A stretch of DNA of 64,000 nt from the NCBI RefSeq assembly GCF_018141525.1, contig NZ_CP064655.1, positions 2,016,501-2,080,500 on the forward strand, read 5' to 3'. The translations under genes were made by a program, and so were the position numbers. The notes beneath the pieces were generated by a model. That model searched no databases and was not told the DNA's origin. It saw only the letters and a list, made by a program, of their open reading frames with translations. This DNA is from Miltoncostaea marina (GTDB lineage Bacteria; Actinomycetota; Thermoleophilia; Miltoncostaeales; Miltoncostaeaceae). Position 1 is the stretch's first letter. Each line of letters begins with the position of its first letter. Below are positions 11,705 to 61,842 of this stretch, piece after piece.

Positions 11705-11896
11705 ATGGCGAAGGTCTGCAGTGTCTGCGGGAAGGCACCCGCGTTCGGCAACAACCGCAGCCACTCGATGCGCGCGACCCCGCGGCGCTTCAACGTCAAC
11801 GTGCAGAAGGTGCGCATCATGAAGGGCTCGACGCCCGTGCGGGCCTACGTGTGCACGCGCTGCCTCAAGGCCGGAAAGGTCCTGAAGGCCGCCTGA
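11705..11896 (+). CDS. rpmB: 50S ribosomal protein L28
   Basis: 63-residue ribosomal protein, [12 protein letters not shown] at the start, with two Cys pairs (CSVC and CTRC) that form a zinc ribbon, plus the L28 core [15 protein letters not shown]. Stand-alone gene, divergent from recG as in many actinobacteria. Only a weak purine-rich stretch precedes the ATG. A strong hairpin follows the stop. Confidence 0.96.
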
Positions 11897-19833: not shown

Positions 19834-20318
19834 TGCTCACTCGGGCGCGGGCGCGCCGCTCACTTGGGCGACCGGCCGGCCGCCCGGCCCAGGTCGCTTC
19901 CCGGCCATGCTCACTTGGGCGCGAGCGCGCCGCTCACTCGGGCGATCAACGGCCGGGCGCCGGGGTCGTCCCCGGCGCGCTCACTCGGGAGCGAGCGCCG
20001 CTCAGTTGGGCGACCGGCCGCCCGACCCAGGTCGCTGCCCAGCCATGCTCACTTGGGCGCGAGCGCGCCGCTCACTTGGGCGATCCCCCGCGCGGCCGGC
20101 TCGGACGATTCGGTCGCACGACCTCGGCGGCGTCCGCGGCCATGCCCACTCGGGCGCGAACGCGCCGCCCATTCGCGCGATCGGCCGCCGGCCCGGGTCG
20201 CTTCCCGGCCATGCCCACTCGGGCGCGAACGCGCCGCCCATTCGCGCGATCGCCCCGCTCGGGGCGCCGCTCCCCGAACCTGCCCACTCACGCGCGGGGA
20301 CGCCGCTCGCGCGAGCGA
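19834..20318. repeat. Repeat array A: seven units of paired 12-bp dyads
   Basis: Fills most of the 589-bp gap between the kinase stop and def. Seven units start at 19835, 19909, 19979, 20047, 20144, 20213 and 20282, that is 74, 70, 68, 97, 69 and 69 bp apart. Each holds two 12-bp dyads close to GCYC-N4-GRGC (best form GCTCACTTGGGC) whose starts are 23 bp apart in six units and 21 in unit three. The 11-bp link is GCGARCGCGCC in most units. A third segment (about GGTCGCTTCCCGGCCAT) completes a 69-bp unit, equal to three times 23. Units 5-7 drift to GCCCACTCGGGC and GCCCATTCGCGC. It is not coding (unit lengths break every frame) and not a CRISPR array. Confidence 0.85.
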
Positions 20319-41620: not shown

Positions 41621-41855
41621 ACGCGATCGGGCTGAAGGTCTCTGCCCAATCGGGCATGGCGTCCTCGGAGCCGGTGGAGCGGGATCGAGCCGGCGCGGGC
41701 GACGGCGGGGCCCGTCGCGAGCCGCGGCTCGGGCGAACTGCCCGATCGAGCGACGGGGCGCCGCTCAATCGGGCATATCGGCGCCCGAGGGGCCAGTGCG
41801 CGCGGACGGACGCGGCGGACGCCCGATCGAGCGGCCCCGTGAGGCCCGCTCCGGC
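41621..41855. repeat. Repeat array B: paired 12-bp dyads, 23-bp phase
   Basis: Occupies most of the 381-bp gap between the uncharacterised gene and aroH. Dyads GCCCAATCGGGC (41644), GCCCGATCGAGC (41740 and 41821), GCTCAATCGGGC (41763) and weaker ones at 41621, 41679 and 41844 follow GCYC-N4-GRGC. Pairs 41621/41644, 41740/41763 and 41821/41844 are each 23 bp apart; the first and last contain one weak member. The 11-bp links differ completely between pairs. This is the same grammar as array A but without its tandem linker sequence. Confidence 0.75.
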
Positions 41856-61566: not shown

Positions 61567-61842
61567 GCCCGATCGGGCGCCCACCCTCCGCTCACTTGAG
61601 CAGGGCGGCCCGCGGCGGCCGGGATGCTCGAGTGGGCGGACCTCGATCGCCCACTCGAGCAGGGCGGCCCACGGCGCCCGAAGGCCGGCCGGATGGAGCG
61701 ACGAACGGCCACCCACCCGGGCCGATCCGCGGCCACGCCGCCGGGATGCCCGAGCGCTCATCGCCGCGGCCGCCCGCCCGGGCACGTCCCGCCACGCCGC
61801 CCCAGGGTGCCCGAGTGAGCGGGTCGCATCGCCCAAGTGAGC
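61567..61842. repeat. Repeat array C: paired 12-bp dyads, about 60-bp units
   Basis: Fills most of the 448-bp gap between the subtilase start and the second LuxR gene. Dyad pairs start at 61567/61590, 61626/61649, 61748/61772 and 61809/61831 (23, 23, 24 and 22 bp apart); units begin about 60 bp apart, with a worn copy near 61694. Cores include the perfect palindrome GCCCGATCGGGC and forms such as GCTCACTTGAGC, GCTCGAGTGGGC, GCCCACTCGAGC and GCCCAAGTGAGC. The last pair reads as the reverse complement of the array A core. A flank CCGGGATG before many first cores parallels CCGGCCATG in array A. Confidence 0.8.

Follow-up and report, generated by a model that had tools for sequence, protein, structure and literature searches.

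The window analysed here is a 64-kb stretch (positions 2,016,501–2,080,500) of the Miltoncostaea marina genome, a single contig of 3,370,274 bp (3.37 Mb) with a GC content of about 76% (75% is quoted at the dyads); the published value is 76.16% (PMC12563890). Array A, at 19835–20316 of the window, consists of seven doublets, each formed by two 12-bp dyads whose starts lie 23 bp apart in six cases and 21 bp apart in the third, exactly as the first-pass annotation had described it. The first doublet, GCTCACTCGGGC / GCTCACTTGGGC, occupies 19835–19869 (starts 19835 and 19858, 23 bp; all window features are unstranded), and the second occupies 19909–19943 (starts 19909 and 19932, 23 bp). The third, GCTCACTCGGGA / GCTCAGTTGGGC, is the 21-bp form at 19979–20011 (starts 19979 and 20000), followed by a 23-bp doublet at 20047–20081 (starts 20047 and 20070). 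The fifth, GCCCACTCGGGC / GCCCATTCGCGC, lies at 20144–20178 (starts 20144 and 20167, 23 bp); the sixth is its 69-bp copy at 20213–20247 (starts 20213 and 20236, 23 bp), and the seventh, GCCCACTCACGC / GCTCGCGCGAGC, is degenerate (20282–20316; starts 20282 and 20305, 23 bp). A mismatch is present in several dyads of units 3, 5, 6 and 7. The same pairing had been reported in two other spacers of the window, where it was indeed found. The convergent spacer at 41.6 kb holds one 23-bp doublet, GCCCGATCGAGC / GCTCAATCGGGC (41740–41774; starts 41740 and 41763), and two single dyads, GCCCAATCGGGC at 41644–41655 and GCCCGATCGAGC at 41821–41832. The spacer at 61.6 kb holds three doublets: GCCCGATCGGGC / GCTCACTTGAGC at 61567–61601 (23 bp), GCTCGAGTGGGC / GCCCACTCGAGC in inverted arrangement at 61626–61660 (23 bp), and GCCCGAGTGAGC / GCCCAAGTGAGC at 61809–61842 (22 bp). 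The distance within a doublet is fixed, while that between doublets takes values of 36, 46, 51, 68, 74, 100, 111 and 123 bp, and some arrays run 23-23-23. The basic unit is therefore the doublet and not the 69-bp unit initially proposed.

The preference for 23 bp extends over the whole genome. In a scan of all pairs of the class I dyad, GCYC-RNNY-GRGC, that permitted any distance of 12–42 bp between starts, 24 of 54 distinct pairs fell at 23 bp, four at 25 bp and at most three at any remaining distance. The 23-bp pairs form about nine intergenic loci, at 356.4, 937.1, 1995.7, 2036.3 (array A), 2058.2, 2078.1, 2172.1, 2455.2 and 2950.3 kb. Within 621 kb of M. marina DNA, a sample of about one fifth of the genome read base by base (about a tenth for the sister species G001), intergenic pairs at 22, 23, 24 and 25 bp numbered 1, 23, 2 and 3. 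Coding DNA (540 kb) contained 118–123 dyads, yet only 0–1 pairs at 23 bp, the ranges reflecting the counting of edge cases and the coding and intergenic labels being approximate because the genes were called by our own codon-usage analysis. Markov-1 shuffles of the spacers yielded a mean of 0.02 pairs at 23 bp, with a maximum of 1, and the dyad is essentially missing from spacers longer than 200 bp that lack an array. The coding-DNA and shuffle comparisons rule out chance pairing in GC-rich DNA. The original claim had been staked on an excess of 23-bp spacing over neighbouring distances and over shuffled sequence, and on both counts it stands.

The spacing persists where the word changes. Under the strict pattern, the GCYC..GRGC word is confined to M. 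marina among 61 relatives; a relaxed class I pattern gave 27 matches in this genome and 0–4 per genome elsewhere in the class, which equals the control level. Two strict matches in named genomes were chance coding or tandem repeats. A de novo lag analysis of G001 revealed 23-bp phased arrays of a second word, GTCC-RNNY-GGAC (class II). Class II doublets occur in all four genomes that represent the genus (11, 24, 6 and 5 doublets), and 36 of the 38 pairs listed for these genomes are spaced at exactly 23 bp; outside the genus, the class sample held 245 further genomes, of which 4 gave only single matches at chance level. The assertion that the phase is the signal is thus borne out both by the genome-wide peak and by the return of the phase across the genus with another dyad word. 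The form found in the genomes G002 and G003 was sought by a profile, a tail pattern with 3 mismatches being too noisy, and the profile matches all four genus genomes as well as the sister genus g7. The g7 word, GTGCAATTGCAC / GTCCAATTGCAC (GTGC/GTCC-AATTG-SAC), forms isolated doublets, 16 of 16 at exactly 20 bp. Since a sister word keeps 23 bp throughout the genus and the sister genus uses 20 bp, the conserved unit is a doublet of operator-like palindromes whose word and spacing are lineage-specific and which is sometimes tandemly amplified. The 20-bp spacing also overturns a separation of about two helical turns as a rule, while the accompanying proposal of a protein binding two sites remains the natural reading of the strict phase and the free linkers.

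Seven doublets in G002/G003 (L166, L161, L163, L165, L167 and L164 are listed) share a directional 3' tail, CATCnCCCCGAAaCGCCTGCA. Both of their 12-mers are invariant, including the AATT centre, which lay outside the search pattern, and their linkers differ. The 20 bp after the tail may form a second hairpin with a varying stem. In genus g8 of the same family (G010), a perfect 33-bp inverted repeat with 21-bp spacing, TGCCATTTGGCACTCGCCGAGTGCCAAATGGCA, occurs at two loci (L271:3609-3641 and 11739-11771), too few to interpret; its CTCG..CGAG linker resembles the class II linkers of M. marina. Viral sequences contained no class I match. Of four class II matches in viral sequences, L199 and L202 proved to be coding repeats of collagen-like type, and L200 and L201 phage operators at 22 and 24 bp, so a phage origin was rejected. 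The latter two, GTCCGAACGGAC / GTCCGATYGGAC (L200:283-348 and L201:8697-8732), lie beside a small phrog_638 gene; they resemble the class II word and are probably the operators of a phage repressor. The plasmid collection gave no match to the G001 array, and a plasmid origin was rejected.

The anatomy of the doublet separates conserved from free positions. Linker identity between loci is 0.50, compared with 0.42 for shuffled linkers, which is close to random and agrees with the earlier statement that the linkers are free to change. Despite the 75% GC of the DNA, AT-rich sequence marks the dyad centre and the W positions that flank it. Conservation within the dyad is partly ascertainment, the doublets having been located by motif. 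In class II, linker positions 2 and 10 are likewise AT-rich, which suggests that the recognised site may be symmetric and approximately 16 bp long, with weaker symmetry beyond the 12-mer. M. marina carries both class I and class II words, for the most part not in the same doublet; within a doublet, all four half-sites are usually of one type (GC- or GT-) and switch together, with a few hybrids. Both direct and inverted arrangements are seen at the doublet centres.

The loci compared are not shared between species. The M. marina array at 1995.7 kb, which lies downstream of mqnE, is missing from the orthologous spacers of G001, G002 and G003, that of G003 being about 45 bp long and holding only a terminator-like hairpin. 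Conversely, neither M. marina nor G001 has the doublets that G002 carries beside clpC and at C97. Five orthologous-spacer comparisons between species were made, and units were lacking in each. Within the M. marina genome the loci are locally clustered, with 5 of 9 class I loci in 180 kb (p=0.003) and 5 of 11 class II loci in 60 kb (p=0.0002), the clusters of the two classes occupying different places. In G001, many class II doublets lie at about 2.55–2.88 Mb of C1, echoing the M. marina cluster at 2.60–2.64 Mb. Convergent spacers are over-represented (14/34 vs 36/201, p=0.005), and arrays also occur in divergent ones. No common functional theme was found among the flanking genes, and a regulon was rejected on this ground. 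Other repeats occur in the same genome. A 35-bp tandem repeat, GATGCCCGGACACGCGTCCCGCGCGAGGCTGCGGC, of about 3–4 copies (C1:1997058-1997229; L057:7059-7230) lies upstream of the mqnE-like gene and adjoins a doublet array. Immediately upstream of a TetR-family gene lies a perfect palindrome, CAGTTATTGAATAACGGTTCAATAACTG (C1:937050-937080), which is probably the operator of that gene, with no relation to the doublets. The genome also has a second family of dispersed non-coding repeats, longer and likewise unrelated, in spacers of 650–1080 bp (C1:21457-22107, L117; 1907186-1908264, L123; 2710768-2711622, L067); GGTCGGCTGGGGCCGATCC and CGGCAAATCGCCCCTGGCCGGGGCGATTTGC are among the blocks that its members share.

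The family presents a defined unit with fixed spacing, a free linker, two or three word classes, an intergenic location, no positional conservation at the loci tested and local clustering. Our preferred reading, to which we assign a probability of about one half, is that these are extragenic palindromic doublets that behave like REPINs and spread within the genomes of this family, with a putative symmetric protein reading both halves. Such a protein would engage the unit as a pair of neighbouring dimers and would recognise it as double-stranded DNA; the protein, or an enzyme partner, may copy or maintain the units. The linker would drift while the word and the spacing stay, since under this proposal only intact doublets are recognised, and tandem duplication of some units would give rise to arrays such as array A. 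To judge from the sequence comparisons, the lack of arrays in the orthologous spacers at mqnE, clpC and C97 would favour spreading over a fixed function. The low copy number, tens per genome, counts against the spreading account. Among the roles first offered, a BIME-like repeat fits best in view of the unshared positions, the clustering and the convergent bias. A segregation array found no support: parS-like sites (TGTTTCACGTGAAACA-like 16-mer) are confined to 3,366.8 kb, a long way from every array, with none in the window, and the loci are not centred on the origin or terminus. An identity with parS/ParB was rejected for the same reasons.

The main rival shares most of this anatomy and is a serious one, although we regard it as possible rather than probable. 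It holds that the arrays are owned by the host, a dimeric HTH or nucleoid protein binding as a dimer of dimers to organise, insulate or silence intergenic DNA, with the species differences arising from co-evolution of protein and site. Double-stranded operators fit the strict phase, the free linker, the co-switching half-sites, the AT-rich centre and the indifference to direct or inverted arrangement. In addition, the very similar phage palindromes GTCCGAACGGAC and GTCCGATYGGAC adjoin a Cro/CI-type HTH gene in two viral contigs, which makes this kind of word plausible as an HTH operator. The principal argument against host ownership is that none of the loci compared across species of the genus proved to be conserved. 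Moreover, the flanking genes lack a theme, the loci are few and unevenly clustered, and one family contains two incompatible words and two spacings.

Hairpins in RNA or single-stranded DNA, such as bidirectional terminators or stabilisers of mRNA 3' ends, would have the dyads pair with each other and the linker serve as a loop. Linker self-complementarity exceeds chance in M. marina class II (63%) and in G002/G003 (72%), with p values of 0.0002 and below; some units are near-perfect inverted repeats of 35–47 bp, and the enrichment in convergent spacers points the same way. However, the linkers of class I and of G001 are at chance, and direct tandem arrays prevail there. Covariation within single dyads showed no compensation at position 3/10, weak compensation at 5/8 and a mixed pattern at 2/11, by which a single-dyad hairpin was rejected; the missing compensation at position 3/10 in class I also weighs against the broader hairpin account. 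Divergent spacers hold arrays too, the loci number only tens, and the window contains no Rfam match at the gathering threshold, so a known structured RNA family was rejected for it. Accordingly, the hairpin account is backed for only part of the doublet family (M. marina class II and G002/G003), and as a general explanation it is improbable. Neutral minisatellites, in which protein-free tandem duplication of GC-rich DNA would make the 23-bp period the length of a copied unit, are strongly disfavoured and the least probable explanation: units within an array are clearly tandem copies (an array of 11–12 units in G001, periods of 48 and 69 bp), but nine class I and many class II loci agree in dyad and spacing and not in linkers, the inter-doublet distance varies while the inner distance is constant, and the sister genus has isolated 20-bp doublets. 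A CRISPR array was rejected on repeat structure, the repeats being degenerate 12-bp dyads and the 11-bp linkers often being tandemly duplicated.

Returning to the doublet with its putative symmetric reader, we tentatively extend it to a family-wide system. A protein of this kind may recognise palindrome pairs whose spacing is characteristic of the genus (23 or 20 bp), word and spacing co-evolving; the pairs may be mobile doublets that need no transposase, or else insulator arrays of the chromosome. To our knowledge, the known palindromic doublets of bacteria rely on a recognisable single-strand transposase. Here, an equally strict geometry occurs without such a transposase, and the spacing shifts between sister genera. 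This raises the sharp question of what protein gauges a spacing of 23 bp in the genus of M. marina and of 20 bp in the sister genus.

Like parS, KOPS and matS sites, the doublets are short palindromes scattered along the chromosome, but their sequence differs and they show no arrangement around the origin or terminus. They share with the cooperative double operators of dimeric HTH proteins the symmetric half-site pairs, the fixed spacing, an AT-rich uncontacted centre and a free linker. Unlike HTH operator arrays, they form dozens of loci near unrelated genes at positions that are not conserved. The RAYT/Y1 transposase (PF01797, Pfam Y1_Tnp) was found in none of the four genus genomes, with positive controls; the known mobiliser is therefore missing, and a RAYT-driven REP was rejected. 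A constant GTAG/CGTC tag was also lacking in the flanks examined, CGTC being confined to the ends of linkers in some G002/G003 copies. Because both the transposase and a constant tag are missing, the doublets were not filed as REPs. The CGTC-tagged REP families are likewise palindromic, extragenic and often arranged as doublets, are reported to lack an associated transposase gene, and the CGTC at the end of some G002/G003 linkers recalls them (PMC3733652). Their stems of 8–9 bp starting with A/T pairs, loops of 4–5 nt and CCA tail were not seen in the present doublets (PMC3733652). In published REPINs, the distance between the two halves of the doublet is perfectly conserved and the spacer less so (PMC3116915). 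The present units differ from them in being 12-bp operator-like dyads without a long stem, spaced only at 23 or 20 bp, in occurring in both direct and inverted arrangements, and in linkers many of which are unable to fold into a hairpin; for class I and G001, linker self-complementarity at chance distinguishes them from published REPINs. Nevertheless, they resemble REPINs and BIMEs (PMC3116915, PMC8266576, PMC3733652) as extragenic palindromic doublets with a fixed distance and a less conserved spacer, and also in words specific to each lineage, tandem clusters on occasion, an excess in spacers between convergent genes and copy numbers of tens to hundreds. One feature of REPINs and REPs, an extragenic palindrome doublet at a preferred fixed distance, is found here at 23 bp, and at 20 bp in the sister genus.
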